Of a stretch of DNA of 51,510 nucleotides, positions 35,663-50,825 are shown piece by piece. Within the stretch, counting starts at the first letter, position 1, and each line of letters opens with the position of its first letter. This DNA comes from a virus, in the IMG/VR virus record IMGVR_UViG_3300005295_000004, positions 1 through 51,510 of that record, one strand, 5' to 3'. Under the pieces are notes generated by a model. It had not been told where the DNA came from and did not search any database. It saw nothing but the letters and a program-made list of their open reading frames with translations. The position numbers were made by a program, and so were the translations under genes.

Positions 35663-35678
35663 CTGACGACCCTGTCAG
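35663..35678 (+). promoter_or_regulatory. palindromic operator before gene 35728
   Basis: CTGACGACCCTGTCAG, a member of the 16-bp palindrome family (arms CTGAC/GTCAG). It lies 13 nt after the stop of the first early gene and 50 nt before the next ATG. A -35-like TAGACT overlaps it, but no strong -10 is visible. Confidence 0.7.
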
Positions 35679-35727
35679 CGTGTAGGCTGCATCTGCTTAT
35701 CTTTTCATCCTACATGGAGTCACTACA

Positions 35728-36183
35728 ATGTCTGAACGTAAACAAGCGGCCCGCGCGTCACTGCTAACACTCATCAAGCGCTACGTTAACCCGGTGAAGC
35801 TGGGTCAAGAATCAATGCAGCGGCTACAAGACGCCGTCAACGAAATCGAAGCGGCAGCGATTGAAGCCCACACAGCACTACACAATCCTAACCCGGCCGA
35901 AGCGTTTGCCGGCGGTGTGCATCCTGAGAACGAAGTCGTTAAGGAAGAAGGCACACACGATGCACCCGTGCTCACTGTTGATGCTACAAGCGGCGAGCCG
36001 ATAGAGGGCGGCGGCATTAGTATTTACAAAGACGGCGTGGAGCGCCTGAGCGTGCCTAACGGTCAACCCGCTATTGTCAACGCTCCTGCGCATGATGAAT
36101 CGCACACGCAACGTGAGGAAGCAATTAAAAAGCCTGATGAATCTGAAGCCGATCACCCCGGCGACGGTCAGCCGCACGCCTAA
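35728..36183 (+). CDS. acidic hypothetical early protein
   Basis: A 151-aa, strongly acidic protein. Helical basic start (MSERKQAARASLLTLIKRYVNP), coiled-coil stretch (RLQDAVNEIEAAAIEAHTAL), a beta-rich centre, then a disordered acidic tail (DESHTQREEAIKKPDESEADHPGDG). RBS GGAG upstream. Its own operator precedes it and a strong terminator follows, so it forms a single-gene unit. Acidic small early proteins are sometimes DNA mimics, but nothing specific supports that here. Confidence 0.75.
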   Translation: MSERKQAARASLLTLIKRYVNPVKLGQESMQRLQDAVNEIEAAAIEAHTALHNPNPAEAFAGGVHPENEVVKEEGTHDAPVLTVDATSGEPIEGGGISIYKDGVERLSVPNGQPAIVNAPAHDESHTQREEAIKKPDESEADHPGDGQPHA

Positions 36184-36218
36184 ACGTTTTAAGTTCCCGG
36201 CAAATCCCCCTCCGGTAC

Positions 36219-36247
36219 GCCCCTGCTAATCACAGGGGCTTTTTTTA
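36219..36247 (+). terminator. strong rho-independent terminator
   Basis: GCCCCTG (36219-36225), a 7-nt loop and CAGGGGC (36233-36239) followed by seven T residues. It ends the unit at 35728-36183 and separates it from the next operator-promoter at 36273. Confidence 0.93.
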
Positions 36248-36272
36248 TTGTGTGACGCAGTTCTCTAGCATC

Positions 36273-36294
36273 CTGACGACCTCGTCAGTATGAT
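36273..36294 (+). promoter_or_regulatory. early promoter with palindromic operator
   Basis: CTGACGACCTCGTCAG (36273-36288) is followed directly by TATGAT (36289-36294), a -10-like hexamer. Downstream comes the shared leader CACCCACACTGAACGCAACGG and then the ATG at 36327. The upstream TCTAGCATC, shared with the 38023 promoter, fills the weak -35 region. Confidence 0.75.
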
Positions 36295-36326
36295 GCACCC
36301 ACACTGAACGCAACGGAGCTACTACG

Positions 36327-36554
36327 ATGAACACCAGCGCACCACACCAAACCCGCGCGATTCGCAAGATACTGGCCGGCATGCCCGTAGAAGTGAACAC
36401 TATGCGTCAGTTCCCTGACACGCGCATCGCCTCTAATGAATTGGAAGTGATCACACAAGCCTCTGTGTTGTTGACCGCTGCGGGCTTCAAGTGCACACCG
36501 GTAAGCGATTGCGCCGGCATGTTCAACATTTATGCAACGAAGGTGCAAGCATGA
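36327..36554 (+). CDS. hypothetical early protein
   Basis: 75 aa (MNTSAPHQTRAIRKILAGMPVEVNTMRQFPDTRIASNELEVITQASVLLTAAGFKCTP...). Compact alpha/beta appearance with two cysteines near the C-terminus. RBS CGGAG upstream. First gene of a two-gene unit driven by the 36273 promoter. No family recognised. Confidence 0.75.
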   Translation: MNTSAPHQTRAIRKILAGMPVEVNTMRQFPDTRIASNELEVITQASVLLTAAGFKCTPVSDCAGMFNIYATKVQA

Positions 36555-36769
36555 ACTACCCGCCGCACGTTAAGGATGTGTACAGCTTTTTTATCGGCCT
36601 GCGTTTGTACATATTGGACTGCATCACCTATACGGCAACGTATCAATTCTCATGGATGCCGCTTTTGCAAGTGTGGCGCGGCGGTGATGTATTGAGGCCG
36701 TTCGCCTCGTGGGTGACAGACGATTACGGCACACTTGTGCAAATTGTGAAGCCCGTCACTTTACACTGA
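36551..36769 (+). CDS. aromatic-rich hypothetical early protein
   Basis: 72 aa from ATG 36551, overlapping the preceding stop (ATGA). Rich in Tyr/Trp/Phe (YSFFIGLRLYILDCITYTATYQFSWMPLLQVW), so it is possibly membrane-associated through one hydrophobic stretch. The next promoter starts at its very end. No family recognised. Confidence 0.7.
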   Translation: MNYPPHVKDVYSFFIGLRLYILDCITYTATYQFSWMPLLQVWRGGDVLRPFASWVTDDYGTLVQIVKPVTLH

Positions 36770-36787
36770 CGACCTCGTCAGTATACT
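36760..36787 (+). promoter_or_regulatory. early sigma70-type promoter with operator in the spacer
   Basis: TTTACA (36760-36765), the perfect palindrome CTGACGACCTCGTCAG filling the entire 16-bp spacer (36766-36781), then TATACT (36782-36787). This is the clearest example of the family. A bound protein would sit between -35 and -10 and block RNA polymerase. The shared leader CACCCACACTGAA follows. Confidence 0.85.
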
Positions 36788-36820
36788 GCACCCACACTGA
36801 AACGAAACGAGGGCCGCAAC

Positions 36821-37264
36821 ATGAAAATGACCATTAACGACATCCGCAAAGTTATCCGCCGCGCAGCTTGGGTGCGTAACGATTTTTCAGGCATCCGTGA
36901 AGAATTCATCGCGCAGCCTGTTGATACCATCATGCAAGAGAAGATTGCAGAACTGCAGGCGCTGGTGATTCCTGCACGCTTCGCACGTGACATCGCAGAA
37001 CGCGACGAAGAAATCACCTACTGCCTGCGCACCATTGGCCGTTGGCTGGCTGCTAAAGCGGGCCTCGCCCCTTGCAGCGTATCGCGCGAAGCATACGAAG
37101 CCGCAGGACGTGCCACGCTGGCTGTTGTTGTCGATGATGTGCAGGCCATCTACGACCGCATGAAACCTGAATTCGATTACATCGCGCCGGAACTATTGAA
37201 GCCTGCAAAACAAGTGTTGAATCGTCGCCCTGCATTGCGCGTGATTCAAGGGGGTAAGCAATGA
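36821..37264 (+). CDS. hypothetical early protein, helical
   Basis: 147 aa, predominantly helical (MTINDIRKVIRRAAWVRNDFSG, IMQEKIAELQALVIPARFARDIAERDEEITYCLRTIGRWLAAKAG). Ends RVIQGGKQ with its stop overlapping the next start (ATGA). Preceded by CGAGGG as RBS and by the 36760 promoter. No family recognised. Confidence 0.75.
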   Translation: MKMTINDIRKVIRRAAWVRNDFSGIREEFIAQPVDTIMQEKIAELQALVIPARFARDIAERDEEITYCLRTIGRWLAAKAGLAPCSVSREAYEAAGRATLAVVVDDVQAIYDRMKPEFDYIAPELLKPAKQVLNRRPALRVIQGGKQ

Positions 37265-37758
37265 GCGGCCTTTGGTATGAATGGGATTGTGAACTTGTTG
37301 CGATCTATCGCGATGAGAACGGCGACGAGATAGACAACGACATTATAGAGCACGATCACCGCGACACCTTTAAAGAAGTGCGAGCGCTGGCCGCTACAGG
37401 CGCACCGGCAGGCCATGAACACCACATCGTGTTAGTGCGCACTGACGACAACAGCCGGTCGTGGGCGTACTTGGGTGACGATGGCAAGCTGCCTGAATAC
37501 TTTGAGGATGCTTACGGTAAGCACACATCGAAGGTGCCCCAGCGATATCACGATGAAGTGTTCAGGGCCGGCCCGTCTGTTGTGTCGTTTGTGATGTCTC
37601 TTGTACCCATTACAATGGGCAACTATCGGATGTATAGCTGTGCGGTCGACTATGCGTTCCACGGCGTTATTCGTTATTCAGATGACACACAGAAAGGCGT
37701 GTATTCATCTGACCGGACTGATGTGATTCGATTTGTCGCTAAGGAGTTGCACGCATGA
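37261..37758 (+). CDS. hypothetical early protein
   Basis: 165 aa, acidic, His/Asp-rich near residues 20-60 (DNDIIEHDHRDTFKEVRAL...GHEHHIVLVRTDD). Aromatic-rich C-terminal half (YRMYSCAVDYAFHGVIRYSDD). ATGA overlaps with both neighbours. No family recognised. The His/Asp pattern might bind metal. Confidence 0.72.
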   Translation: MSGLWYEWDCELVAIYRDENGDEIDNDIIEHDHRDTFKEVRALAATGAPAGHEHHIVLVRTDDNSRSWAYLGDDGKLPEYFEDAYGKHTSKVPQRYHDEVFRAGPSVVSFVMSLVPITMGNYRMYSCAVDYAFHGVIRYSDDTQKGVYSSDRTDVIRFVAKELHA

Positions 37759-37997
37759 GCGGCGGTACAGTATGCAAGTGCGCTGAAAGTAAGAAGCCAA
37801 TGGCGCAGCGTGCATGGGTTGTAACGCAGCGTAAGTGCAATCATTCAGCGTTTAACGGATATCACTATCAATACAGCCAGTGGTCAGCAATCGTTTGCCT
37901 TGGCGTTGGATGTCCTGCCGCATGGCGCACGAAAGCTGCTTATGTTGCACAACTCGCTGATGCGAAGCATACGCCGTCGGGGTACGTGAAAGCGTAA
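37755..37997 (+). CDS. small Cys-rich hypothetical protein
   Basis: 80 aa (MSGGTVCKCAESKKPMAQRAWVVTQRKCNHSAFNGYHYQYSQWSAIVCLGVGCPAAWRTK...). The CxC, CNH and CLGVGC pattern suggests a zinc ribbon. Related small proteins with W.V..R.CNHSAF...S.WS...C..C..W.RT are widespread in phages without assigned role. Third gene of its unit. Confidence 0.75.
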   Translation: MSGGTVCKCAESKKPMAQRAWVVTQRKCNHSAFNGYHYQYSQWSAIVCLGVGCPAAWRTKAAYVAQLADAKHTPSGYVKA

Positions 37998-38022
37998 AAC
38001 TGTGACGTGTGTCTCTAGCATC

Positions 38023-38044
38023 CTGACGAGGTCGTCAGTATAGT
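38023..38044 (+). promoter_or_regulatory. early promoter with palindromic operator
   Basis: CTGACGAGGTCGTCAG (38023-38038) then TATAGT (38039-38044), followed by ACACCCACACTGAAC leader. The upstream TCTCTAGCATC is identical to that at 36263, showing that the promoters arose by duplication. Confidence 0.78.
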
Positions 38045-38074
38045 GACACCCACACTGAACAACGAGGCAAGACG

Positions 38075-38236
38075 ATGTCACATTACACGCGGTTTGATTC
38101 TTATACCAAAATGGGCCTTTCGCACCGGCTGGCATTCGATTTGTGCGTAGGGGTGTTAATGGGCGAATTCGTAGGCATGCAACGCACGCTTGCTGCAACG
38201 CTCGTTTCCAGCTCCATCACAATGGGTTATAAATAA
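38075..38236 (+). CDS. 53-aa hypothetical early protein
   Basis: Starts at ATG 38075 with GAGG upstream, directly under the 38023 promoter: MSHYTRFDSYTKMGLSHRLAF, then DLCVGVLMGEFVGMQRTLAATLV, ending ITMGYK. Its stop shares a base with the ATG of the next gene (TAATG). The promoter, RBS and coupling make it credible despite its size. No family recognised. Confidence 0.7.
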   Translation: MSHYTRFDSYTKMGLSHRLAFDLCVGVLMGEFVGMQRTLAATLVSSSITMGYK

Positions 38237-39036
38237 TGAGCACACATACACATCGCGGGCACTGCCAAGTTTGCCTGCGCATCCAAGCAATCGACACGGC
38301 AACCGGTCGCGTTGCTGTTCACGGCTACCGAGTTAAACACGGTTTTTTCTCAGGCCGTTGCCCCGGTAGTGAATCGCTGTCATTACATGTTGAGCGCACT
38401 ATCACTGACGGCTGCATAGCGCATTATCAAGCCGACGCGAAAGACCACGCAATAAAGGCGCAAGAATACAAAGACGGCAAGCGCCTGCCCGAGCAAGTGC
38501 GCATCGGGGAGCGCCGTATCCCTGACCCCAACAACCGGGGCCGCGTGCATTACGAAGATATCATCGTACCTTATGCTGAAGCGGCCGAGCTGTACCAATT
38601 GAACGCGGTTCGCGTGGCGATCTACAAGCATGAGTCAGCAGCAACGGAAGCGTTGCGCATGAAAAACATGATGCAGGAATGGGCCGCGCGCGTGTTCGAT
38701 AACAAAACGCCAGCCTATCGCGTTGAAGATTTAGAGGTACGCGACTGGAAGGTAGGCGATACCGTTCGTATCGGCGGCAAGAAAGGTTTTACCGCCACCA
38801 TCGAAGCCATCGAAGACAAGCCCTATAAAACGCGCGGCTTCGGTCGTGGTTCTGAAACGATCATGTGCCCACACGCACGCATCACACAGCCCGGCTTGCC
38901 TGAGATTCGCACAGCACGTACAGGCATCATCACACGTGAAGCGCGCCCAGCTAAACAGTATTGGGAGCCACTGCGCCACATCAAGCGGCCCAAGTCGGCA
39001 TTGATTGAATCACTAAAAAAGGCGAATTTACTATGA
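38236..39036 (+). CDS. hypothetical early protein with N-terminal zinc-binding module
   Basis: 266 aa. N-terminus HRGHCQVCLRIQAIDTATGRVAVHGYRVKHGFFSGRCPGS matches a small CxxC...HGY...GxCPGS module frequent in phage and plasmid proteins. A helical middle (YQADAKDHAIKAQEYKDG) and an SH3-like stretch (WKVGDTVRIGGKKGFTATIEAIEDKPYKTRGFGRGSETIMCPHARI) follow. Probably nucleic-acid associated. Function unknown. Confidence 0.75.
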   Translation: MSTHTHRGHCQVCLRIQAIDTATGRVAVHGYRVKHGFFSGRCPGSESLSLHVERTITDGCIAHYQADAKDHAIKAQEYKDGKRLPEQVRIGERRIPDPNNRGRVHYEDIIVPYAEAAELYQLNAVRVAIYKHESAATEALRMKNMMQEWAARVFDNKTPAYRVEDLEVRDWKVGDTVRIGGKKGFTATIEAIEDKPYKTRGFGRGSETIMCPHARITQPGLPEIRTARTGIITREARPAKQYWEPLRHIKRPKSALIESLKKANLL

Positions 39037-39449
39037 GCAACACCGATCACCGCTGCCCACGTAACGGCATGTCATGCGGCACCGACTCGAAACTATGGTG
39101 CCGTGATTGCCCGCAGTTGAAAGACGCAACCACACCGGTTGCAATCGTAGGTACGGCACCGCCGGTCGTCAGTGATTACCCGCCTGTGCCTTCGGGTGCG
39201 CATGGTGCGCCGCTCGCGTATCAAGTCGGCGTCAATCAGTTGTTTGATGTGCTCATTGATTGGCAGCACCCTGTGAGACACGTTGCGTTGACACCTGCGC
39301 AAGCGGTCGCACTCGCCGGCAGTCTCAAGCGCGTGGCGAACCTCGCTATTACGCAGAAGAAGAAAGCACAGCGGGCCGAGTTGTTAGGCGGCCAACTGCG
39401 CGCGAAGCTTCAAGAGAGATTGAAAGGAGGTGCAGCAACAGACGAATAA
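39033..39449 (+). CDS. hypothetical early protein, Cys-rich start
   Basis: 138 aa. N-terminus MSNTDHRCPRNGMSCGTDSKLWCRDCPQ suggests a zinc site. The C-terminal half is helical and basic (LTPAQAVALAGSLKRVANLAITQKKKAQRAELLGGQLRAKLQERLKGG). ATGA overlap with the preceding gene. A strong AAAGGAGGTG sequence lies at its 3' end, but no open frame follows it. Confidence 0.72.
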   Translation: MSNTDHRCPRNGMSCGTDSKLWCRDCPQLKDATTPVAIVGTAPPVVSDYPPVPSGAHGAPLAYQVGVNQLFDVLIDWQHPVRHVALTPAQAVALAGSLKRVANLAITQKKKAQRAELLGGQLRAKLQERLKGGAATDE

Positions 39450-39472
39450 AACAAGCTCTTGTTACAGTGTCG

Positions 39473-39497
39473 CACCGGGCGTTCGTCCCGCCCGGTG
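39473..39497 (+). terminator. GC-rich hairpin, probable terminator
   Basis: CACCGGGCG (39473-39481) and CGCCCGGTG (39489-39497) form a 9-bp stem with a 7-nt loop, 24 nt after the stop of the preceding gene and 30 nt before the next operator. The trailing sequence (TGTTGAAAG) lacks a T-run, so termination may be incomplete. Confidence 0.6.
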
Positions 39498-39527
39498 TGT
39501 TGAAAGTGTGACGCGCAACACAGACGC

Positions 39528-39549
39528 CTGACGACCTCGTCAGTACAGT
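39528..39549 (+). promoter_or_regulatory. early promoter with operator, no leader
   Basis: CTGACGACCTCGTCAG (39528-39543) followed by TACAGT (39544-39549). The next ATG is at 39557, only 7 nt beyond the -10, so transcription would start at or next to the start codon. The CACCCACACTGAA leader of the sister promoters is missing. Confidence 0.65.
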
Positions 39550-39556
39550 AGAGCCC

Positions 39557-39811
39557 ATGAACACCGCAGTTAAATTTTTCCAAGTGCAACCACGCCGCCG
39601 CCATGACAGCCCGACTATGAAGCTGTGGGCGTGCGTTGTAGATGGAAAAATAATTGCGTACACCGATGAGCCCGAAACACTGGCCGCCGATCTACCCCGC
39701 GTCAACGAGCTGGCTTATGTGTCGCACCCTGTGAAAAATATTCGCTATCACGAGTTGTTAAATTACCGCCCGTCACTTCGCGGGCTTGAGGGTCTTGTAT
39801 GTTCTCGGTAA
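39557..39811 (+). CDS. hypothetical early protein, possibly from a leaderless mRNA
   Basis: 84 aa (MNTAVKFFQVQPRRRHDSPTMKLWACVVDGKIIAYTDEPETLAADLPRVNELAYV...). A beta-hairpin followed by a helical part, resembling small phage proteins of unknown role. The ATG lies too close to the -10 for a Shine-Dalgarno to be transcribed. An internal ATG at 39617 (MKLWACVVDG) lacks an RBS too. Overlaps the next gene by 13 nt. Confidence 0.68.
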   Translation: MNTAVKFFQVQPRRRHDSPTMKLWACVVDGKIIAYTDEPETLAADLPRVNELAYVSHPVKNIRYHELLNYRPSLRGLEGLVCSR

Positions 39812-40044
39812 TCGTTTGGTTGCACATCGGCGCAATGCATCAGCTTTCAGTCATCCCCGCAACGCCGGAAATGTGCGGCGCGACGCGTAAGTATGCGATG
39901 ACGCAGCCAGCGGTTGAGCATGCAATATGCGCCGGCAGTTCCGACACGATCCTGAAAGCAATGATTGACGGCGGCTGCGTCACATCACACAACGGCCGCG
40001 ATTTTTACTGCCAACGCGGTTACAACCCGGAGTTTTTAAAATGA
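39799..40044 (+). CDS. hypothetical early protein
   Basis: 81 aa (MFSVIVWLHIGAMHQLSVIPATPEMCGATRKYAMTQPAVEHAICAGSSDTILKAMIDGGCVTSHNGRDFYCQRGYNPEFLK). A hydrophobic start and a C-terminal Cys/His-containing segment. Starts inside the previous gene and overlaps the next by ATGA, so it is coupled. No family recognised. Confidence 0.68.
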   Translation: MFSVIVWLHIGAMHQLSVIPATPEMCGATRKYAMTQPAVEHAICAGSSDTILKAMIDGGCVTSHNGRDFYCQRGYNPEFLK

Positions 40045-40574
40045 GATTATCGCCTGTTCAATTTGAATCGTTGATGGAAATTATTCAAGCTTCTAATGTG
40101 CACGCGCGCGTTGTGTCTGGCGCTATTGTGTACAGTTCAAAAGAGGGTGAAACAGTTCGCCTAAATCCGATTGAAGCTTATAAACGTTTAGAAGCTGCTA
40201 AGGCTCGGGCATTCAAGTTGTGTACTGTTGAACCTGCACCGCCTGCGCATGATTTTAAGGAACGCGTCATATTTGAGGCTCGCAACATCCCCGGCGTCAC
40301 AATGTCGATGATGCACGATCAAGTAGAATTATGTCAGCGTCGAATTGCTGAACTTGAAAAATCAATCGAGCACTACAAAGCACAACAGAACACTGTGCAC
40401 GATGTAATTCAGCAATGGAAATCCCGCAAGGAATGTGAAGAACGCCAAGCCGATGCGGCGAAGTCGTGGGCACACAGCCACCTGCGCGGCAGTCTGCTTG
40501 TTGAATTCCTTAACACTGTGAGGGCCGCACGTGATGGAAAACCTAGAGAAACCTCCGGGCCTGACGCCGGATGA
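40041..40574 (+). CDS. coiled-coil hypothetical early protein
   Basis: 177 aa. Helical throughout, with a coiled coil near residues 90-150 (DQVELCQRRIAELEKSIEHYKAQQNTVHDVIQQWKSRKECEERQ). The C-terminal HSHLRGSLLVEFLNTVRAARDG region precedes an unstructured end. Coupled to its neighbour by ATGA. No function inferred. Confidence 0.72.
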   Translation: MRLSPVQFESLMEIIQASNVHARVVSGAIVYSSKEGETVRLNPIEAYKRLEAAKARAFKLCTVEPAPPAHDFKERVIFEARNIPGVTMSMMHDQVELCQRRIAELEKSIEHYKAQQNTVHDVIQQWKSRKECEERQADAAKSWAHSHLRGSLLVEFLNTVRAARDGKPRETSGPDAG

Positions 40575-40692
40575 CCCGCACGCGCCGCGCCGTTATCCGC
40601 GTGACCCTTTAGCGGATGACGACCGGCGCTACTTCTGCAACGAACCTTATTGTAAAGGTCACATAATAGAGGATGACGTGTGCAATGTGTGA
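40534..40692 (+). CDS. 52-aa hypothetical protein overlapping the coiled-coil gene
   Basis: ATG 40534 with GAGGG 9 nt upstream encodes MENLEKPPGLTPDDPHAPRR followed by a charged stretch and a Cys-containing end (YFCNEPYCKGHIIEDDVCNV). Overlaps the end of the previous gene by 41 nt and stops 17 nt before the next operator. The four cysteines (CNEPYC...C) could bind zinc. Size and overlap leave some doubt. Confidence 0.5.
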   Translation: MENLEKPPGLTPDDPHAPRRYPRDPLADDDRRYFCNEPYCKGHIIEDDVCNV

Positions 40693-40702
40693 TGTGGTTC
40701 AC

Positions 40703-40731
40703 TAGACGACTGACGACCTCGTCAGTAAGAT
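40703..40731 (+). promoter_or_regulatory. early promoter with palindromic operator
   Basis: TAGACG (40703-40708), 17-bp spacer containing CTGACGACCTCGTCAG (40710-40725), then TAAGAT (40726-40731). The leader GCCCACACTGAAACGCAACGGAG with its Shine-Dalgarno precedes the ATG at 40766. Confidence 0.82.
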
Positions 40732-40765
40732 AGAGCCCACACTGAAACGCAACGGAGCCCGGACC

Positions 40766-41077
40766 ATGACTAACCTTACTGTAGCAAACACCATCCTTGC
40801 CCAACTTGGCGGCAACCGTTTTATTGCAATGACTGGTTGCAAGAATTTTGGCGGTATGACTAACGGTTTAAGCTTCCACATTCCACGCGCTACCAACAAG
40901 GCGAAGTTCTGCACCGTCACCCTTGACGCCGGCACCGACACCTACGCCGTGAAGTTTCAAAAGCAAATCGGCGGCAAGTTTGGCGAAGTCGTCACAGTGA
41001 GCGAACACGCCATGATCTACGCTGACCGCCTCGCCTCACTGTTCAGCGAACAAACCGGCCTTGCGGTGTCGCTATGA
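40766..41077 (+). CDS. conserved phage hypothetical protein
   Basis: 103 aa. ANTILAQLGGNRFIAMTGCKNFGG is a widely conserved phage/mobile-element signature (TIxxQLGGxRFxxMTGxKNF), followed by beta strands (GLSFHIPRATNKAKFCTVTLDAGTDTYAVKFQK) and HAMIYADRLASLFSEQTGL. Members of this family have no assigned function. RBS ACGGAG. First gene of a four-gene unit; overlaps the next by ATGA. Confidence 0.85.
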   Translation: MTNLTVANTILAQLGGNRFIAMTGCKNFGGMTNGLSFHIPRATNKAKFCTVTLDAGTDTYAVKFQKQIGGKFGEVVTVSEHAMIYADRLASLFSEQTGLAVSL

Positions 41078-41385
41078 ACAAGCAGCGACGTGCAGCGCTC
41101 GGCGGTCTCATGGACCGCTTGAGTACAACCCTTGAATTACTCAGCGAGAACGGCGCGGCATTGGAAGACATCGCGAACGAACTCGAAACCCTACGCGACG
41201 AGGAACAAGAGTATTACGACAACATGCCAGACGGCCCACGCGAGGGCGACAAGGGCAGTACAGCAGAGGCCGCAGTGTCAAGCCTTGATTCAGCGATTGA
41301 CACCATACGCGAACTTATAAGCGCGATTGAAGCGGCCAACGCTGACGACATCAACAGCAACATAGATGATGCAAGAGGTTCTTAA
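41074..41385 (+). CDS. conserved acidic coiled-coil phage protein
   Basis: 103 aa: MNKQRRAALGGLMDRLSTTLELL, then LEDIANELETLRDEEQEYYDNMPDGPREGDKG and a helical C-terminal half. The LRDEEQEYxDNMP motif recurs in phage and plasmid small proteins that often accompany the preceding family. Acidic and helical, probably dimeric. Function not established. Confidence 0.82.
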   Translation: MNKQRRAALGGLMDRLSTTLELLSENGAALEDIANELETLRDEEQEYYDNMPDGPREGDKGSTAEAAVSSLDSAIDTIRELISAIEAANADDINSNIDDARGS

Positions 41386-41387
41386 AC

Positions 41388-41975
41388 ATGATTGATAACG
41401 ACACGCTACCCGTAATCGTCGCGATATGTGACGAGCGCGATAGACAGCTCAAGGTGAAGGGCTGGACCCGCGCACATGACGACACGCACAACGCGGGCGA
41501 GATTGCTTTAGCCGCTGCCGCCTTCGCGTTTTGGGGCGCTGGTTTTCACAGCTTCGCATGGCAACATTACCCGTGGCCGCATTCTGGCGAAGTGCTTGCC
41601 AAACAAGGTGCCGAAGAAGCATTGATAAAAGCGGCAGCGCTTTGCGTGGCTGAAATCGAACGCTTGCGCCGACTGCGCGCGGGTGCATCTGGCGTGCAGC
41701 AAGTGTTGAGTGGCTGCGCAGTGCGTGCGGCGATTCAACGCGACACGCTAAGCCCTCCGACTATCCCGCCGAACCCTGCAGAACAGTTAGAAGAACAGCG
41801 CCGGCAATTCATGGCTGCAATTGATTATTGTATTGAGTTATCAGAAGCCGGCGACTCACACGGCGCTGTTAGTTTCTTGCAAGACTGGCGCGAGGGTGAT
41901 GTGACTGATTGGGTAAGCGGTCCCGATGGTTTCAAAGGGCCGTTCCCCGCCACCATGAAGCGCACAGGACAATAA
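41388..41975 (+). CDS. MazG-like/EaA-type protein
   Basis: 195 aa. The N-terminal ~100 residues carry ERDRQLKVKGWTRAHDDTHNAGEIALAAAAFA and AKQGAEEALIKAAALCVAEIERLRR, the pattern ERxRQxxxxGWTxxHDDxHxxGE(I/L)xxAAxxYA of a phage family related to all-alpha NTP pyrophosphatases. The acidic E/D residues could bind Mg and a nucleotide. The C-terminal half (EEQRRQFMAAIDYCIELSEAGDSHGAVSFLQDWREGD) is helical. Activity is inferred only. Confidence 0.72.
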   Translation: MIDNDTLPVIVAICDERDRQLKVKGWTRAHDDTHNAGEIALAAAAFAFWGAGFHSFAWQHYPWPHSGEVLAKQGAEEALIKAAALCVAEIERLRRLRAGASGVQQVLSGCAVRAAIQRDTLSPPTIPPNPAEQLEEQRRQFMAAIDYCIELSEAGDSHGAVSFLQDWREGDVTDWVSGPDGFKGPFPATMKRTGQ

Positions 41976-41979
41976 CACC

Positions 41980-42186
41980 ATGACGCGCGACGAATGCGGC
42001 GGCACCCTATGGTTCACGGGTGAAACGTTTTATGCCTATGAACTACGCAAGCGTCGGCGCGGTGCGCCTGACTACGCTGAATGGCGGCCGCGCCGGTCGC
42101 AATGGTCTACCGATCATGGCGGCCGGGCGTTTGTAACTGACGACTTCGGCAGCCTTGTAGAAGTACCTCGCAAAACTGTGATGTAG
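41980..42186 (+). CDS. basic hypothetical early protein
   Basis: 68 aa (MTRDECGGTLWFTGETFYAYELRKRRRGAPDYAEWRPRRSQWSTDHGGRAFVTDDFGSLVEVPRKTVM). Arg/Trp-rich, probably nucleic-acid interacting. AGGA upstream; last gene of the unit from 40703. No family recognised. Confidence 0.72.
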   Translation: MTRDECGGTLWFTGETFYAYELRKRRRGAPDYAEWRPRRSQWSTDHGGRAFVTDDFGSLVEVPRKTVM

Positions 42187-42190
42187 TTCC

Positions 42191-42219
42191 TAACACTCTG
42201 ACGAGGTCGTCAGTAAGAT
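42191..42219 (+). promoter_or_regulatory. early promoter with palindromic operator
   Basis: TAACAC (42191-42196), 17-bp spacer containing CTGACGAGGTCGTCAG (42198-42213), then TAAGAT (42214-42219). A slightly altered leader (ACACCCACACGAACACACAACCGGAG) precedes the ATG at 42256. Confidence 0.8.
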
Positions 42220-43489: not shown

Positions 43490-43554
43490 CTGACGACCCT
43501 GTCAGGGGTGAAAATCGTGACCGGTTTCACACTTCACACTGACAAGGGCGTCAA
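43490..43554 (+). promoter_or_regulatory. operator region before gene 43557
   Basis: CTGACGACCCTGTCAG at 43490-43505 overlaps the previous stop, with TTGACT (43485-43490) as a -35-like hexamer. A second, diverged site CTGACAAGGGCGTCAA (43539-43554) contains the AAGGG Shine-Dalgarno of the gene at 43557. GTGAAA/TTTCAC is a small inverted repeat between them. No good -10 is seen. Confidence 0.6.
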
Positions 43555-43556
43555 TC

Positions 43557-43769
43557 ATGAAAGCGCTGTTTTTAATTCTCGCGTGCCTAGTATCGTTTTC
43601 GTTAATTGGTTATGGCTTTTACAGCGGCCATGCGTTTTTAACCGTCTTGCTGATCGTTGTTGTTTTTGTAGCAGTTCTTTTTATATCGTTCGCGATGTGG
43701 CTTGAAGATGAACACGAGCGCGACGGCAACGACCCTTTCAAGAATCCGTACAATCAACCCGAGGATTGA
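43557..43769 (+). CDS. small two-helix membrane protein
   Basis: 70 aa with two hydrophobic segments (ALFLILACLVSFSLIGYGFY and AFLTVLLIVVVFVAVLFISFAMW) and a charged acidic tail (EDEHERDGNDPFKNP). Chosen over an overlapping frame at 43508 because AAGGG precedes this ATG and the protein is coherent. Envelope location expected, function unknown. Confidence 0.75.
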   Translation: MKALFLILACLVSFSLIGYGFYSGHAFLTVLLIVVVFVAVLFISFAMWLEDEHERDGNDPFKNPYNQPED

Positions 43770-44691: not shown

Positions 44692-44721
44692 CTTGTAAGC
44701 ACCGACCGACGAGGTGCAACC

Positions 44722-44919
44722 ATGCGTTTTTCATTGAATGGCGATGGCTCAATTCATGATGCGGCGTTCCCGCGCAACGTGGTGATTACCATCACGACCA
44801 AGTCCCACCCATCGACTACCGAGCGGGAATACGCAGAACACATTTGCAGGGTGCTGAACGCTGGCGCACCGGCAAGGGCGGCTACCCCCGCTGTGCAGCC
44901 TGAAACGCGCCAAGGATAA
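44722..44919 (+). CDS. small hypothetical protein
   Basis: 65 aa (MRFSLNGDGSIHDAAFPRNVVITITTKSHPSTTEREYAEHICRVLNAGAPARAATPAVQPETRQG). GAGGTG precedes the ATG. REYAEHICRVLN resembles the C-terminal helix of several small phage proteins. Last gene of the early arm; its 3' end overlaps the convergent primase gene by 38 nt. Confidence 0.7.
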   Translation: MRFSLNGDGSIHDAAFPRNVVITITTKSHPSTTEREYAEHICRVLNAGAPARAATPAVQPETRQG

Positions 44920-47482
44920 CTTGTACGTTGCGCTCGTGGGCTCCGGGCGTGTCCTGCTTGACATAGAGAAACGGCCGGGTGCCGTCAGTGTCATTGATTG
45001 GCAAACGACCATCAGGCAGCCCGGCGTGTGGGAAGTAGCCGAGCCCTTCCAACATTTCCCGGCGCTTGTTCCGGGGTATGCTCGCACCCTTGCCGATGGT
45101 CAATAGGAGGCGATCTAACGCGGTCGATGATATCCACCCGCCACGGAAGCCCGCCACACTCTGCGCAATTGATTCTATGACTTCCTGCTCAGCCAGACCG
45201 AGCCCGGCGCTGATAGCTTCCTCGGTCGCTGATGTCTTCGGGCAGCGTATGCAATCTTTCGCCGGGTTCCATTCGTTTGGAATCTGGAAACTCTGCAGAT
45301 AGTCAGCAACAATGAATTTGCCCTCACCCATGCGCCAGTCACGAAGCTGTTGCATGTATCGCATGCCCATGCCGTCGCGCTCTAGGTCATCTTCATTTTG
45401 TTGAGCACAGAAGAACGGGCCTATGCGTCGATCATTCTTTGTTTTGCGGATTGCGTTTTTGTGGTTGGTGTTCATCACACCGTTAAAGCAAACCTCGCGT
45501 GTCACCTTGTCTACGCCCTTGCCTTCGATTTCAAGCTTCACACCGGTAATCATCGGCTTGAGTGCTTCCCACAACGAGCCGCGCGACTCGCTAATATAAA
45601 CGTCTTCGCAACATATCAGCAGCTTGCCATAGAACGCGCTATTGAATTTTGAACCGAGTTCTGCAGCCTTGGGCCAGTGGGTGTAACGTTCACCGATTGC
45701 GTATTCAAGTAAATAACTCAGCGTTGTTTTGCCGTTACCTTCGACGCCTTGAATCAACGGCCACCATTGAAATTTTTCACCAGCGTATTGCACACAGGCT
45801 GCGAAGTACGAAAGCAATATTTGTGCGTCGTTGCCTTTGGGTAACAGCTTGTATAGATGCGTGAGGAATGGCGACACATCACCCTTTTTGCGCACGATGA
45901 TTGACGGCACATAAGAGTTAATCAACGTCATGTTGTCGCGGTTGATGATGGTACGCGGCGCTATGCGTGGATCAAAGAACATCCCTTTAACTTTTGGGAA
46001 GTGATGAATCTCTGAGAACACGAACGCATCCCAAGCTTTTTTTGATGGTCGCTGACCGTCAGCCGTGGTGATGAATGTGTAGCCAGAAAATTCCGCGTCG
46101 AATTTCTCAGGGCTCAGCGTGTGACCTTGGGGCATCAGCACTTGGTGTATGTCTTGCACGTACACGCAGCCATCAAACATTGCAACTTGTTGGGCTTGTA
46201 TTAGTGTGTCACCAATCGGCGGGCGTGTGCCGGGTGCAATAGGCTTGTTAGGATCGTAGGGAAGAAAGGGGGTTGTTTCTTGTTCCGGCTTACGCTCATC
46301 CGTCACCAACCCCACAGTTGGAACCGCTGCGCCTGCGTTAACAGGGGTAGTCGCGATTGGTGCCAATACTGACAGGGTCGTCGGTAGATGTAAAGCAACG
46401 CTCGCCCCTGTGGTCGTGACGGTCGGCTGAAGCGTTGCCGGCATCGACTGGACAGGGGCGACGGTAGGCGCTGCGTCTGACGCCGCAGAGGTACTACGCG
46501 GGTCTTTATACCACTGGCGTTGCGAGCCGCAAGCGCGTTGTATGGTATCGTGAAGATAGCCTACACGGTCCCACTTCGGGCGAACCAAGGCAGACCGCCA
46601 TAGCAATCGTTGCATGCGTTCCCCGTGGTTGCCGGTCCAGAACGCAAGATGATTGGCAAGAGCGAGGTCTGCGGCGCTGGCGTCATAGCTGCCGTGTTGT
46701 TGAGGTGGGAAAGCGCGGGCCAACGCGTTGGGGGTTGCATGCCATAAATCAGCGAACGCAGCTTTGCCACCGAACACAGCAGCACCACTTTGTGACCGCA
46801 TGGCACGGCGTAGTAACTCGTCGTCATCTTGGGGGCCGCTCCATTCTTTAACCGGTGCCGTCGTCAACTCGTCGCCGTACTCGGTGTCATCGTGAGGTGG
46901 GAAATAAGCTACAAGCGCATGCAGTTCCGCCGTCAAGTCTTTGAGAGGGTCGCCCATAGCACCTAGCCCGGTGCATGCGATAAAACGTAACCGTGTGTAC
47001 AGCTCTAAACCATACGTCTTGTTGCGCGTGCCATGATCCGGCCGGGCTCCATGATAAGAGCCATAAACGTGGAGCCCGTTTTGAGATACGCTGACCTCAA
47101 CACCACCGCCCGGCAACTTATCGAGAAAGGCACGCGCGTGCGGTGCCCACTGGTTGCCGTCGCGGCATTTATCGATATCAAGTGCAAACAACCTGCGCCC
47201 GTTGGGCAACACGATGTTTTCAGAAATGATTACGCCTGTACCGTACCCCATGACGCCCGGCGCAAGCGGTTGGGCATTCCACATTTCCGCCCACATGACT
47301 GCCTCGTCAGGCGTAAGCCACCCGGCAGGATCATGCGGGCTTGTATCGTAGCCCGTGATTGGATCGGTCGGCACCTTGTCAAGCTTCGGATTGCCTTTAG
47401 CATCCACCGCAGAAACTAATCTGTAGAGAATGAAGGCACGAATGCCTTGTAACGCCCCGCGTATATCGCTAGAGTCCGCCAT
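44882..47482 (-). CDS. bifunctional primase (AEP) - SF3 helicase
   Basis: 866 aa. The N-terminal archaeo-eukaryotic primase-like domain has LFALDIDKCRD (DxD), SVSQNGLHVYGSY (sxH motif) and LELYTRLRFIACTG. Then ADLALANHLAFWTGNHGERMQRLLWRSALVRPKWDR is the small helical domain seen in NrS-1-type polymerases. After an Ala/Pro/Thr-rich linker (~330-410), the SF3/DUF5906 ATPase has GVEGNGKTT (Walker A), LLICCEDVYIS (Walker B) and NGVMNTNHKNAIRK. It primes and unwinds at the phage fork alongside the split polymerase. Last gene of its operon. Confidence 0.9.
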   Translation of the reverse strand: MADSSDIRGALQGIRAFILYRLVSAVDAKGNPKLDKVPTDPITGYDTSPHDPAGWLTPDEAVMWAEMWNAQPLAPGVMGYGTGVIISENIVLPNGRRLFALDIDKCRDGNQWAPHARAFLDKLPGGGVEVSVSQNGLHVYGSYHGARPDHGTRNKTYGLELYTRLRFIACTGLGAMGDPLKDLTAELHALVAYFPPHDDTEYGDELTTAPVKEWSGPQDDDELLRRAMRSQSGAAVFGGKAAFADLWHATPNALARAFPPQQHGSYDASAADLALANHLAFWTGNHGERMQRLLWRSALVRPKWDRVGYLHDTIQRACGSQRQWYKDPRSTSAASDAAPTVAPVQSMPATLQPTVTTTGASVALHLPTTLSVLAPIATTPVNAGAAVPTVGLVTDERKPEQETTPFLPYDPNKPIAPGTRPPIGDTLIQAQQVAMFDGCVYVQDIHQVLMPQGHTLSPEKFDAEFSGYTFITTADGQRPSKKAWDAFVFSEIHHFPKVKGMFFDPRIAPRTIINRDNMTLINSYVPSIIVRKKGDVSPFLTHLYKLLPKGNDAQILLSYFAACVQYAGEKFQWWPLIQGVEGNGKTTLSYLLEYAIGERYTHWPKAAELGSKFNSAFYGKLLICCEDVYISESRGSLWEALKPMITGVKLEIEGKGVDKVTREVCFNGVMNTNHKNAIRKTKNDRRIGPFFCAQQNEDDLERDGMGMRYMQQLRDWRMGEGKFIVADYLQSFQIPNEWNPAKDCIRCPKTSATEEAISAGLGLAEQEVIESIAQSVAGFRGGWISSTALDRLLLTIGKGASIPRNKRREMLEGLGYFPHAGLPDGRLPINDTDGTRPFLYVKQDTPGAHERNVQVILGAFQAAQRG

Positions 47483-47553
47483 GTGTGCAGTGTCACCAGT
47501 GTGGGCCGGTGTGGGTGTGAACTACCCCGCCGGTCCGTTTGTTTAAGGGCGGA
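47483..47553 (-). other. spacer between regulator and primase genes
   Basis: A 71-nt gap on the minus strand. It contains CACCCACAC and CCCACACTGG sequences reminiscent of the early leader box, then GGTGA about 10 nt before the primase ATG as a weak Shine-Dalgarno. No palindromic operator is present. Confidence 0.5.
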
Positions 47554-47850
47554 TTACGCGGCGATGTACTTCGCTACTTTCTTCCTTAAAGCGGCACTCA
47601 TGGGCACCCCGATTTTTTCGCGACATGAACGCGCATCTGCAAGTATCTTCAACATTTCATGTTCAACCGCGTGTTTGACAATCGCGGTGCGTACTTCAGG
47701 CATCGTGCCGAAGTGATAAGACACCGTTGATTGCCCAACGCCTGCAGCGTTTGCAATATCAATACGCGAGAACTGAAGCAAGCCCACGTCATTCGCAAGC
47801 TTGACGGCTGCGGTAAGAATGGCTTGGCGTGAATTGTCGTTTGGTTTCAT
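47554..47850 (-). CDS. mini-TetR DNA-binding regulator
   Basis: 98 aa. RQAILTAAVKLANDVGLLQFSRIDIANAAGVGQSTVSYHFGTMPEVRTAIVKHAVEHE is a full TetR_N helix-turn-helix with the recognition helix GQSTVSYHFG. The ~100-residue ligand-binding domain of normal TetR proteins is absent; only a short basic helical tail (ALRKKVAKYIAA) follows. TetR proteins bind palindromes as dimers, and the phage has one palindrome family before most early units and at this operon's own promoter. It is the only clear transcription-factor candidate found. Confidence 0.85.
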   Translation of the reverse strand: MKPNDNSRQAILTAAVKLANDVGLLQFSRIDIANAAGVGQSTVSYHFGTMPEVRTAIVKHAVEHEMLKILADARSCREKIGVPMSAALRKKVAKYIAA

Positions 47851-47862
47851 AGTCTGGTGATC

Positions 47863-48372
47863 CTATAGTGAGCCTACAGCTTTGACAATGGCTGCATTCC
47901 CGCCAAGTGAATTTATTAAAGTGCTCCATGCAAGTTGTGCGTTTTCCTCAAGCGTTCCGCTATAACTCCAGTCTGCGCGCTTGCACTCACGCGATACAAA
48001 CTGACCGATGACACTGCCGACCATGTCAGGCGCGATGCGTACCGGCTTAACGCCGATCAAATCCGCTGACTTCATAACTTCGTTGACCTTTTTACTATCG
48101 TTACCGAGCCCCCAGCGTATCGGCCTGCGGGCGTTCTTTGCACATTCAGGGCAAAGGTCACGTGCGTTTGCGACAATGCCTGCCCCTGAGTTATTGCGCC
48201 ACAAGTAAACACCCCGTTGCGGCGCTTCAAGCCTGATTGCCGATTGTACATATGCTTCAGTCTTACCACTGACGAGGGCGTCAGGCTCAGGGTCAACAAT
48301 ACTACACGCGACGAGTTCTGCAAATGCTTGTTGAGAGATTCCCCAACGTGCGGCCCATTCATGCAAGGTCAT
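47863..48372 (-). CDS. VRR-NUC domain nuclease
   Basis: 169 aa from ATG 48372 (ACGGAG upstream and ATGA overlap). N-terminal HTH-like LHEWAARWGISQQAFAEL, then the VRR-NUC pattern: EAPQRGVYLWRNNSGAG, RWGLGNDSKKVNEVMKSADLIGV, FVSRECKRADW (ExK) and TLEENAQLAWSTLINSLGGNAAIV. E..., D of SADLIG and ECK form the PD-(D/E)XK centre. A four-Cys insert (CPECAKNAR) is present. Such nucleases pair with phage SF2 helicases, perhaps for recombination or Holliday-junction processing. Confidence 0.88.
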   Translation of the reverse strand: MTLHEWAARWGISQQAFAELVACSIVDPEPDALVSGKTEAYVQSAIRLEAPQRGVYLWRNNSGAGIVANARDLCPECAKNARRPIRWGLGNDSKKVNEVMKSADLIGVKPVRIAPDMVGSVIGQFVSRECKRADWSYSGTLEENAQLAWSTLINSLGGNAAIVKAVGSL

Positions 48373-48593
48373 AGCGTAGTAACTCCGTTGATCGTGTCGG
48401 TTTTGCGGTGCACCCAATCGTGATTTATGGGTGCGTGAGATGGCGCATAAACGTGTTGTACAGCGCATCGAGCGCTGCACTTTGCGCATTGCTTGTAATC
48501 AATCGTTGCAACATGCGTGATCACAACCCAGCGATGAAACCAACAAGGATGTTGTGGGACGCTCAGGGAAATGATTTGATGTGTAACGATCAT
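48369..48593 (-). CDS. small Cys/His-rich protein
   Basis: 74 aa (MIVTHQIISLSVPQHPCWFHRWVVITHVATIDYKQCAKCSARCAVQHVYAPSHAPINHDWVHRK...). CAKCSARC plus several His residues suggest a zinc finger. The start overlaps the MazG-like stop and its stop overlaps the VRR-NUC start, both as ATGA, so it is a genuine member of the operon. No family recognised. Confidence 0.75.
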   Translation of the reverse strand: MIVTHQIISLSVPQHPCWFHRWVVITHVATIDYKQCAKCSARCAVQHVYAPSHAPINHDWVHRKTDTINGVTTL

Positions 48594-49021
48594 TCAGGGC
48601 AACCCCACTCAACAGGATGCGAGCGCCCGCATGATTCGCAGTCGTTACGTGTGGGTGATAGGTTCGCGGTGCCGTCGTGCACTTTCTCTGCATGCTTGCG
48701 TTGCCAATACTCTTTAGGCAACGACGCGACGCGCTCCCATTCGCGGTTTATCTCGTGTGCAAAATCATGGCCGACAGCTTCAGAGAAACCTAGTAATGTA
48801 ATCCCGCAACCGCCAATCTCTTGGCCGATGTCTTTGCTAACCGGGCGCGAATAAGTGCGGCGCGCGATCTTGTCCACAGTTTCAAGCTTGACGCCGGCAG
48901 CCTGTGCAATCTCGATTGCTTCTTCAAGTAATCGTGCGGCGCGTTCGTCAATGTTGGTTGCCACAAGGCCGAAGCGATCAACGGCCCATTCTAAAACTTG
49001 CTCTTGATCAACAATATTCAT
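48590..49021 (-). CDS. MazG-like NTP pyrophosphohydrolase
   Basis: 143 aa. ERAARLLEEAIEIAQAAGV (EExxE-like helix), SKDIGQEIGGCGITLLGFSEAVGHDFAHEINREWERVASLP (ExxD-type helix) and EYWQRKHAEK are typical of phage MazG-like all-alpha nucleotide hydrolases, which clean or reshape the dNTP/NTP or ppGpp pool. The extra C-terminus CESCGRSHPVEWGCPE may bind zinc. ATGA overlaps on both sides. Confidence 0.82.
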   Translation of the reverse strand: MNIVDQEQVLEWAVDRFGLVATNIDERAARLLEEAIEIAQAAGVKLETVDKIARRTYSRPVSKDIGQEIGGCGITLLGFSEAVGHDFAHEINREWERVASLPKEYWQRKHAEKVHDGTANLSPTRNDCESCGRSHPVEWGCPE

Positions 49022-50730
49022 GCTTGCACCTCTTGCACGTTGTAGCGTTGTAAATCTGCGGCGATACGCGCCTCAAGTTCTGTTGCTGGTGTCAACGGCA
49101 ACGCTTGAGCGCTTAAATAGTCGATGCCGTAACGAATGAAAAATAACTTTTGTGATTCGCGTTCGTTCAAACCTAAATGCTTTTGATAGCCACCCCACAA
49201 CATCATAGTGTGGCGCAGTGTTGTCTGACCTCTGAACCTGTCGTGATGGTGGCGTAGCTGTGCTTTGACGATGTAGCCCGGCATGCCTTGCGGTGCCACA
49301 TATGGTCCCATGATTTTTTCAGTCTCGCCACGCAATGCGCGCAACACATCAGGATCAAGCTCTATCAAATCGCCTTGCACAAGCTCGGGTGTTGAGCGTC
49401 CCGCCGGCTCCGGTTCGGTGCCGCAGTATCTGCACTTCACTAGATATGCTTCGTATGGTTGTTTGCAGTTCAAGCAAGTGCGCAGTGGGATTGCATCAGA
49501 TTTGCGCGAATTACGCTCCCCGCTTAACAGGCTGTATTCTTGGCGTGAATCAAACAAACCGCGAAACTTCGCATGCCAAATGATGTTTCCCACGTGGTCG
49601 ATAATGATCGCCTTCGGCTTGTTTGAATTCGCTATGAGTGCGAGCCGTTCAACGTCACTGTATTGCGGCCAGTAACGCGCGTATTGATCGTCAACCATTA
49701 CACGCAACGCACGACCGACTTGCTGACACAATAACTGCCAAGATGCAGTGCGGCGGACAAGGCTGACAACTTCGATTGCGGGAACGTCAACACCTTCGCC
49801 CAAGCAATCAACCGACACAAGTTGCAGTATCTGACGTGCTTTAAATTTGCGCATCAGTTGGCCGCGTATGGTTATCGGTGTTTCATCGGTGATGACTTCA
49901 GCCGGCACACCTGCAGCAACATAGGCGTTGCGCAGTTTCACCGCTTCCTCTTTATCAACTGCGAATGTTACACCCAGCTTGCCGGCGGCATACTGCAAGT
50001 AAGTTTTAACCACATCGCCAACGATATGGTTATCTGCATGCGTTGCGGCGCGCAGCTTGGGCATGTTGTATTCGCCCGAGGGTCCGATAGGCACGTCAGC
50101 GAGTGCAATATCACTACCAACACATACAAGCCGGTAATCAGTTAGAAACCCACGGTTGATAAGCTGCCGACCATAAGGGCCAACTACAAGACGATCTACA
50201 AACCCCTCGCCACCTTCACGCCCTAACCCTTTACCATCTGCGCGCAATGCGTGCGCTGTGGGGAACAACCAACGTGCGTTAGGAAACTTGCCAACCTCGC
50301 GGCCCCATTTATTTTCACGAAGGACGTGATGCCCCTCGTCAATCACACCATATCCGACTTGTGAAAACCAACGGTCGTTTGTGTCATAGTTGCGCAGTGT
50401 GTCCACGCCGGCCACACGTGTGCGGGCTCGTGAGTTGTACGTAGAGTGACCTTGCAAGTCATGCTCAAGCGCAATGATTTGTTGCACAACTGCTTTAGGC
50501 GCAATGATGGAGTGCGGCACGCGTTCACGATTCAATGATAGGGCCGCTTGACTTACCAGCTCTTGCCGGTGCGCAATCACGATTGAAGGGCAGTCAAATT
50601 TCGTGAGCGTATCACAGAACAACACAGTCTTGCCGCCGCCCGTAGGCATAACCGGCATAACAACTATTGCCCCCTCTTGGTAGGCTTGAAAGGTTGTGTT
50701 TTGTACTGTGCTTTGGAAGTCGTAGAGCAT
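49018..50730 (-). CDS. SF2 (DEAD/DEAH-like) helicase with zinc ribbon
   Basis: 570 aa. Motif I PTGGGKT, Ia IAHRQEL, II IDEGHH, III region FPTAHALRADGKGLG, IV-V region LVSVDCLGEGVDVPAI, VI QQVGRALR. Residues ~410-440 have CLNCKQPYEAYLVKCRYCG, a zinc ribbon. It resembles RecG/Rad25-like phage helicases used for replication restart, recombination or late transcription. First gene of the regulator operon, transcribed from the double-operator divergent promoter. Confidence 0.9.
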   Translation of the reverse strand: MLYDFQSTVQNTTFQAYQEGAIVVMPVMPTGGGKTVLFCDTLTKFDCPSIVIAHRQELVSQAALSLNRERVPHSIIAPKAVVQQIIALEHDLQGHSTYNSRARTRVAGVDTLRNYDTNDRWFSQVGYGVIDEGHHVLRENKWGREVGKFPNARWLFPTAHALRADGKGLGREGGEGFVDRLVVGPYGRQLINRGFLTDYRLVCVGSDIALADVPIGPSGEYNMPKLRAATHADNHIVGDVVKTYLQYAAGKLGVTFAVDKEEAVKLRNAYVAAGVPAEVITDETPITIRGQLMRKFKARQILQLVSVDCLGEGVDVPAIEVVSLVRRTASWQLLCQQVGRALRVMVDDQYARYWPQYSDVERLALIANSNKPKAIIIDHVGNIIWHAKFRGLFDSRQEYSLLSGERNSRKSDAIPLRTCLNCKQPYEAYLVKCRYCGTEPEPAGRSTPELVQGDLIELDPDVLRALRGETEKIMGPYVAPQGMPGYIVKAQLRHHHDRFRGQTTLRHTMMLWGGYQKHLGLNERESQKLFFIRYGIDYLSAQALPLTPATELEARIAADLQRYNVQEVQA

Positions 50731-50751
50731 CGTGCTACAGTATCCGGCCTG

Positions 50752-50825
50752 ATTATATTTTGCAAACAGTTGACAGGGTCGTCAGTCTAGCTTTATCGTC
50801 CGACTGACGACCCTGTCAGTATCCC
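50752..50825. promoter_or_regulatory. divergent promoter with two palindromic operators
   Basis: Two members of the 16-bp family, 34 bp apart centre to centre: TTGACAGGGTCGTCAG (50770-50785) and CTGACGACCCTGTCAG (50804-50819). On the plus strand TTGACA overlaps the first site, and TATCCC (50820-50825) follows the second just as -10 hexamers follow the early operators. On the minus strand TATAAT (50757-50752) serves the helicase operon. So both replication operons, including the mini-TetR gene, appear to share this control region. Confidence 0.75.

Follow-up and report, generated by a model that had tools for sequence, protein, structure and literature searches.

A recurrent early-promoter palindrome in an uncultivated phage as the candidate operator of a TetR-like mini-protein

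Which regulator would read a palindrome that recurs throughout a phage genome and lies within its early promoters? The question is raised by the window analyzed here, the complete IMG/VR record of an uncultivated phage (IMGVR_UViG_3300005295_000004; 51,510 bases), in which a 16-bp palindrome precedes nearly every early gene. The answer that we favor, with a probability of roughly 0.78, is that a TetR-like protein encoded by the phage uses TGACG-N4-CGTCA as its operator and would shut off the early genes and itself at promoters probably assisted by a CRP-like input. Near-identity DNA searches of GenBank phages with the window returned no close relative. IMG/VR provided four close relatives (G1 to G4, records G001 to G004; primase 69-82% identical) and a more distant one (G5, record G005; terminase 53%), and these five sequences were compared with the window in full.

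The palindrome and the early promoter units

All ten intergenic sites listed in the preliminary description of the window were found where it had placed them (Table 1). Six of them (36273, 36766, 38023, 39528, 40710 and 42198) are exact CTGACGANNTCGTCAG copies. The other four are less symmetric and their surroundings are unlike those of the six standard early units: the copies at 35663, 43490 and 50804 read CTGACGACCCTGTCAG, with pairing limited to the outer five bases and part of the core, and the copy at 50770 reads TTGACAGGGTCGTCAG. The list was also incomplete, as eight further exact copies of TGACG-N4-CGTCA lie inside larger genes. In the whole window this sequence occurs 15 times against 0.30 expected; with the gap set to any other length between 0 and 20, the same half-sites occur 0-2 times. 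With up to two mismatches, CTGAC-N6-GTCAG gave 57 matches against 17.4 +/- 4.2 in shuffled sequences, a count that none of 100 shuffles reached. When codons were shuffled synonymously 150 times, the larger genes held 0.17 copies on average and never more than 2, against the eight observed, which rejects the palindromes as a by-product of coding constraint; together the shuffle, gap-series and synonymous-codon counts rule out chance. The motif search of the genome and its relatives that had been proposed as a check thus places the palindrome above chance and finds it again in the relatives.

Directly after the last base of each of the six exact copies starts a -10 hexamer (TATGAT, TATACT, TATAGT, TACAGT, TAAGAT and TAAGAT), as had been described. 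The further claim that the palindrome fills the promoter spacer also stands, with a -35 TTTACA at the 36766 copy (16-bp spacer) and TAGCAT at the 36273 and 38023 copies (17-bp spacer); relatives show clearer -35s (TTGCAT, TTGTAT) at the equivalent position. The six early copies share a common plan: TGTGA-N6-(TCNCT), a weak -35, the palindrome, the abutting -10 and, in most, a CCACACTGAA leader. Operator, -10 and leader are conserved in four relatives. The idea of an operator set distributed over the early units is well backed: the sites have the right positions, they are conserved in relatives, and they occur together with a regulator gene of the phage, described below. The CCACACTGAA element itself, located at the predicted transcript start (36299-36308, with equivalents in the G0 to G4 units), is conserved across units and relatives. 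In unit 4 (39544-39811) the ATG of the 84-aa gene lies 7 bases past the end of the -10 TACAGT, so its mRNA is probably leaderless; G1 (47379) and G4 (42344) have the same arrangement.

The placement of the operator differs between phages. It fills the spacer in the window and in G2 and is shifted 3-4 bp upstream in G3, while at many sites of G5 and of phages KpV52 and AAM22 the -35 is formed by the palindrome's own TTGACG end, with a -10 at a distance of 17-18 bp. By eye, 9 of 10 exact copies in KpV52 and about 8 of 10 in AAM22 lie between annotated genes, upstream of early-type gene blocks. Judging from the predicted promoters, every observed position (spacer, -35 or slightly upstream) would obstruct RNA polymerase.

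The four less symmetric sites have settings of their own. The 35663 operator has no aligned counterpart in the relatives and is flanked by an inverted repeat, AGCCTAC...GTAGGCT (35652-35688). Between 43490 and 43554 an operator, a CRP-like CGTGACCGGTTTCACA and a second degenerate operator follow one another before the gene at 43557, an order unlike that of the six standard units. The helicase gene is preceded by the 50770 operator at 55 bp and by the 50804 operator at 89 bp.

The TGTGA element was missed in the preliminary description. In 21 units from five genomes of the window's clade it starts 36-38 bp before the -10, and in these units the distance from it to the operator core downstream varies between 19 and 24 bp. 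Since its spacing is fixed to the -10 yet variable to the operator, we rejected the idea that the TetR-like protein also binds TGTGA in an alternative mode. At six offsets TGTGA was counted 26 times against 0.8 expected, and its placement in G5 is similar. The Klebsiella and Pantoea phages examined lack this fixed spacing. The element belongs to a 16-bp TGTGA-N6-TCACA-like site with a nearly invariant left half and an often degenerate right half, and four of the five best whole-site matches in the window are at operator loci. The site is centered about -41.5 from the predicted (unmapped) starts, which is the position of CRP at class II promoters in E. coli. Our best guess from sequence and spacing, somewhat more probable than not, is that the element is bound by a CRP-family activator of the host.

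A TetR-like protein that accompanies the palindrome

That the window has no CI-like gene, as had been remarked, is literally true; the remark is misleading all the same, because a TetR_N protein is present as a candidate regulator. Its gene has a nuclease-like gene on one side and the primase gene on the other; the operon, which begins with the helicase gene, has two operators in front of it. The 98-aa product matches TetR_N (PF00440) in Pfam with an E-value of 2.3e-7 (30.9 bits; gathering cut-off 24) and phrog_8723 with 1.5e-20, a family labeled 'unknown function' in PHROG that also includes the KpV52 and CP-T1 proteins. Its sequence matches in the PDB are nearly all TetR-family proteins. The AlphaFold2 model (pLDDT 85) contains the four helices of the TetR DNA-binding domain, 5-22, 29-36, 40-47 and 50-64, at pLDDT of about 90 or more, plus two short ones. 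TetR-family proteins are also its top PDB structure matches in Foldseek, with weak E-values (best 0.014). The model lacks a C-terminal ligand-binding and dimerization domain, and the protein thus corresponds to a TetR-type DNA-binding domain and not to a full-length TetR. It is encoded in all five relatives.

Using tblastn we found the TetR-like protein in 85 GenBank phage records at an E-value of 0.01, mostly from Klebsiella phages (Jedunavirus where classified), the others being phages of Edwardsiella, Pantoea, Shewanella, Vibrio, Iodobacter and others. In eight genomes (the window, G1, G3, G4, G5, KpV52, JD001 and AAM22) TGACG-N4-CGTCA is the commonest gap-4 palindrome, with 8-15 copies in each against a mean of 0.04-0.09 per half-site. 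Nine near-copies make it the most frequent palindrome of Vibrio phage CP-T1, and Edwardsiella phage MSW-3 carries a shorter TTGAC-N6-GTCAA five times. Among 21 IMG/VR records compared, the seven with the family hold 13, 1, 13, 9, 8, 10 and 8 exact copies and the fourteen without it hold 0-2 each; this is an association and not a formal test, because some of the negatives were picked for holding one copy and some are perhaps fragments. One of the seven, G025, was found blind by a promoter pattern and was then shown to carry the family as well as 8 copies. The TetR gene is immediately preceded by an operator in KpV52, JD001, AAM22, MSW-3, G5 and G025, and 9 of 11 genomes have one or two operators in front of the operon that the helicase gene leads. 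Before the helicase operon of G001 (37769-37801) and G004 (32525-32557) there are tandem operators one base apart.

Two cases concern specificity. The positive record with a single exact copy, G2, has the most divergent TetR-like protein of its clade, and its sites now read YGACGARYTCGTCR, a drifted form. In Pseudoalteromonas phage PY6 (L078) the recognition helix reads SPPAVQHHF, against the xGT/STVS type elsewhere, and the palindrome is GTAGCGC-N4-GCGCTAC, present five times (7107, 8014, 12382, 19992 and 28188) and always at gene boundaries. There it fills 17-bp spacers from TTGACA/G/T to TACACT/TACGCT and runs into the -10. An unchanged N4 layout with altered half-sites is what one would expect of a switch in specificity. 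Operator specificity thus appears to follow the TetR-like protein, with the reservation that PY6 has other DNA-binding proteins too.

A proposed early shut-off and the alternatives

The TetR-like mini-protein is the probable master repressor of these phages, because related phages of Klebsiella, Pantoea, Edwardsiella and Vibrio have both this protein and the same switch. On entry, host RNA polymerase would fire the early promoters, which are of host-sigma type, probably helped by a host CRP-family activator since promoters of the window's clade carry the CRP-like site near -41.5. The helicase-TetR-primase operon would be expressed among the early units. As the TetR-like protein accumulated, its dimer would occupy the spacer operators (or the -35 in related phages) and block RNA polymerase. 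The early genes would then be shut down, including the TetR-like gene, which may repress itself given that two operators precede its early replication operon.

Three observations weigh against this scheme. Simple promoter blocking does not explain the eight copies inside larger genes, some of them late genes; these may be stoperator-like roadblocks or hidden promoters, either being possible, and at the 30021 copy a leftward promoter (TTGACG-18-TAGGGT) is a possible reading of the sequence. The link between family and palindrome is not universal, as PD0307, AeroV_348 and Vibrio phage 367.14 carry the family with no clear repeated palindrome; a de novo operator motif search in these three, SppYZU01 and phiPLPE gave no convincing result. 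The CRP-like site often has a poor right half, and the proposal of a CRP-type activator is accordingly a guess based on its sequence and placement.

Early-gene shut-off could serve a virulent phage or a silenced one. The absence of an integrase, noted before, was borne out: no integrase, CI-like or partition family was found in the 54 window proteins with Pfam, nor among the matches listed for PHROG (25 of 44 families), and nine large window proteins gave no integrase or CI/Cro-like repressor. Searches of bacterial genomes with the primase gave no relative, and hence no prophage or host; plasmid searches with it gave only weak matches to primase domains, the best placing less than half of the query, and E. 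coli genomes held nothing near the KpV52 operon. The likeness to a prophage regulon that had been suggested is therefore unsupported, with no integrase, no primase match in bacterial genomes and none convincing in plasmids. Lytic early-gene shut-off in a virulent phage is our default, because we found no integrase, CI-like or partition protein in the families listed, no relative of the primase in bacterial genomes and no plasmid form. Immunity is the alternative. Comeau and co-authors described Vibrio phage CP-T1 as temperate without genes of known lysogeny mechanisms (PMC3391216), and since CP-T1 nevertheless carries the palindrome operator set, an immunity role of the TetR-like protein is a serious alternative that can be tested. 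In full, the TetR-like protein would be an immunity repressor holding integrase-less, CI-less phages in an unintegrated, silenced (pseudo)lysogeny, with promoters and intragenic sites bound together and the CRP status of the host biasing the choice. We regard this full version as unlikely. If true, it would explain the reported temperate behavior of CP-T1, and the usual description of these phages as 'virulent' would have to be reconsidered.

A TetR-like protein could also activate early transcription, or re-time it from early to middle, rather than repress it. Some TetR-family proteins of the LuxR/HapR types are activators and the -35s of the window are weak. The site, however, lies over the spacer or the -35, where a bound protein could hinder polymerase sterically, and the -35 and -10 are near consensus in PY6, KpV52 and AAM22, where no activator should be needed; in the window's clade the activator slot is already filled by TGTGA. 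Activation is thus improbable. A host regulator might instead bind the palindrome, the phages exploiting a host regulon and the TetR-like protein having other targets. Phage promoters with sites for a host regulator are on record in the case of CtrA (PMC9437464), and the TGTGA element already hints at one host input. Yet the half-site is shared by Klebsiella, Pantoea, Vibrio and metagenomic phages, with the shorter form in an Edwardsiella phage, it tracks the phage gene, and the operators adjoin that phage-encoded gene, which makes this explanation slightly less credible still. That the palindromes are RNA or DNA hairpins or marks for packaging or segregation, as the inverted repeat around 35663 and the intragenic copies might suggest, is very improbable, for in the main units they lie upstream of the predicted start and hence outside the RNA, their spacing to the -10 and -35 is fixed, and their sequence is conserved and not symmetry alone.

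Known systems and further features of the genome

With TetR-family repressors whose operators lie between -35 and -10, the proposed switch shares the TetR_N helix-turn-helix, a palindrome over the core promoter and a suggested autoregulation; it differs in a 98-aa protein that a phage encodes and that has no room for a ligand-binding domain, and in many operators over a single genome instead of one or two. The stoperators of Cluster A mycobacteriophages, asymmetric sites read by a monomeric two-domain repressor (PMC9283540, PMC6550527), are likewise numerous, genome-wide and found both at early promoters and within transcribed regions. They are asymmetric in one orientation, whereas the window sites are palindromic, and immunity or a block of elongation would be hypothetical for the window. 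Lambdoid CI/Cro systems also place a repressor over early promoters, with operators near the repressor operon, but no CI/Cro-like protein or integrase was found in the window, its operators are more scattered and the repressor family is another. Class II CRP promoters have a TGTGA-N6-TCACA-like site that abuts the -35 at about -41.5 from the predicted start, as here, apart from an often degenerate right half; the window site differs in that it belongs to a phage and is paired with an operator of the phage that fills the spacer.

A further related case is the phiPLPE group. CP-T1, phage 138 and phiPLPE carry tetR-like genes, for which a link to osmotic stress was suggested and no operator or regulon proposed (PMC3391216). 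Like the window, CP-T1 and 138 have a tetR-like gene, and the operator set was found in CP-T1. The repeats in Table 3 of that paper were rejected as operators, being long tandem repeats. No paper that we found, in a literature mostly outside subscription journals, names an operator or regulon for the phrog_8723 family. Phage repressor networks are known; what would be new is a TetR repressor without a ligand domain combined with spacer operators and a CRP-like co-input. For PHROG 8723, a family found in dozens of phages of Klebsiella, Edwardsiella, Pantoea and Vibrio, of which some are under study for therapy, the role proposed here is that of a master repressor of early genes. The operator code is legible and open to testing in cultivated phages, KpV52, JD001 or CP-T1 for example. 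The early promoters appear to join a host CRP-like input and a phage repressor in one 60-bp unit, and for CP-T1 there is now a concrete candidate for how it could be temperate without known lysogeny genes.

Table 1. Palindrome copies, CRP-like sites and operon genes in the window.
Feature	Position	Strand	Remarks
Exact operator in gene 759-1028	903..918		Counterpart CTGACGGACTCGTCAG in G1
Intragenic copy TTGACGAGGTCGTCAC	2025..2040		Motif match
Intragenic copy CTGACGACTTCGTCAG, DNA polymerase gene	4901..4916		Not conserved in relatives
Intragenic copy CTGACGGCACCGTCAG, tail gene	9970..9985		Conserved in G1
Intragenic copy ATGACGACTTCGTCAA	17040..17055		Motif match
Intragenic copy CTGACGGTGCCGTCAG	24172..24187		Motif match
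Intragenic copy TTGACGTACACGTCAG	26984..26999		Motif match
Copy CTGACGACCCCGTCAA, end of portal gene	30021..30036		Conserved as CTGACGACCTCGTCAA in G1, G4
Asymmetric operator CTGACGACCCTGTCAG	35663..35678		Precedes gene 35728-36183, without an evident -10 or -35 around it
CRP-like site TGTGACGCAGTTCTCT, unit 1	36251..36266	+	Class II position
Unit 1 operator CTGACGACCTCGTCAG	36273..36288	+	-35 TAGCAT 36266-36271, -10 TATGAT 36289-36294; conserved in G1-G4
CRP-like site TGTGAAGCCCGTCACT, unit 2	36745..36760	+	Sequence and spacing
Unit 2 operator	36766..36781	+	-35 TTTACA 36760-36765, -10 TATACT 36782-36787; conserved in G1-G4
CRP-like site TGTGACGTGTGTCTCT, unit 3	38001..38016	+	Sequence and spacing
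Unit 3 operator CTGACGAGGTCGTCAG	38023..38038	+	-10 TATAGT 38039-38044; conserved in G1, G2, G4
CRP-like site TGTGACGCGCAACACA, unit 4	39507..39522	+	Sequence and spacing
Unit 4 operator	39528..39543	+	-10 TACAGT 39544-39549; next ATG 39557
CRP-like site TGTGATGTGGTTCACT, unit 5	40688..40703	+	Sequence and spacing
Unit 5 operator	40710..40725	+	-10 TAAGAT 40726-40731
CRP-like site TGTGATGTAGTTCCTA, unit 6	42177..42192	+	Right half weak
Unit 6 operator	42198..42213	+	-10 TAAGAT 42214-42219
Asymmetric operator	43490..43505		Before gene 43557-43769; CRP-like CGTGACCGGTTTCACA 43516-43531, CTGACAAGGGCGTCAA 43539-43554
DNA primase	44882..47482	-	phrog_1829, 1.2e-100; downstream of TetR-like gene
TetR-like mini-protein, proposed repressor, 98 aa	47554..47850	-	Pfam TetR_N, phrog_8723, AlphaFold2
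Endonuclease-like protein	47863..48489	-	phrog_93; adjoins TetR-like gene
Intragenic copy CTGACGAGGGCGTCAG, endonuclease gene of TetR operon	48269..48284		Motif match
DNA helicase	49018..50730	-	phrog_16, 1.8e-55; leads operator-preceded operon with TetR-like gene
Operator TTGACAGGGTCGTCAG	50770..50785		Divergent region between helicase (-) and rightward replication genes (+); counterpart in G1, G3
Second divergent-region operator CTGACGACCCTGTCAG	50804..50819		89 bp upstream of helicase

Bases 1-28 of the window are identical to bases 51483-51510, suggesting that the genome is complete and circularly permuted. Its genes include those for portal, terminase, head and baseplate proteins, a primase, a helicase and a family A DNA polymerase. 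The open reading frame at 28045-29484 matches MutT/NUDIX (residues ~69-167) and head-morphogenesis families (186-419). Another palindrome, GTTCC-N4-GGAAC, is repeated at 7 places in G003 (7771 among them) and at 6 in G005 (4826 among them) and probably represents terminator hairpins.

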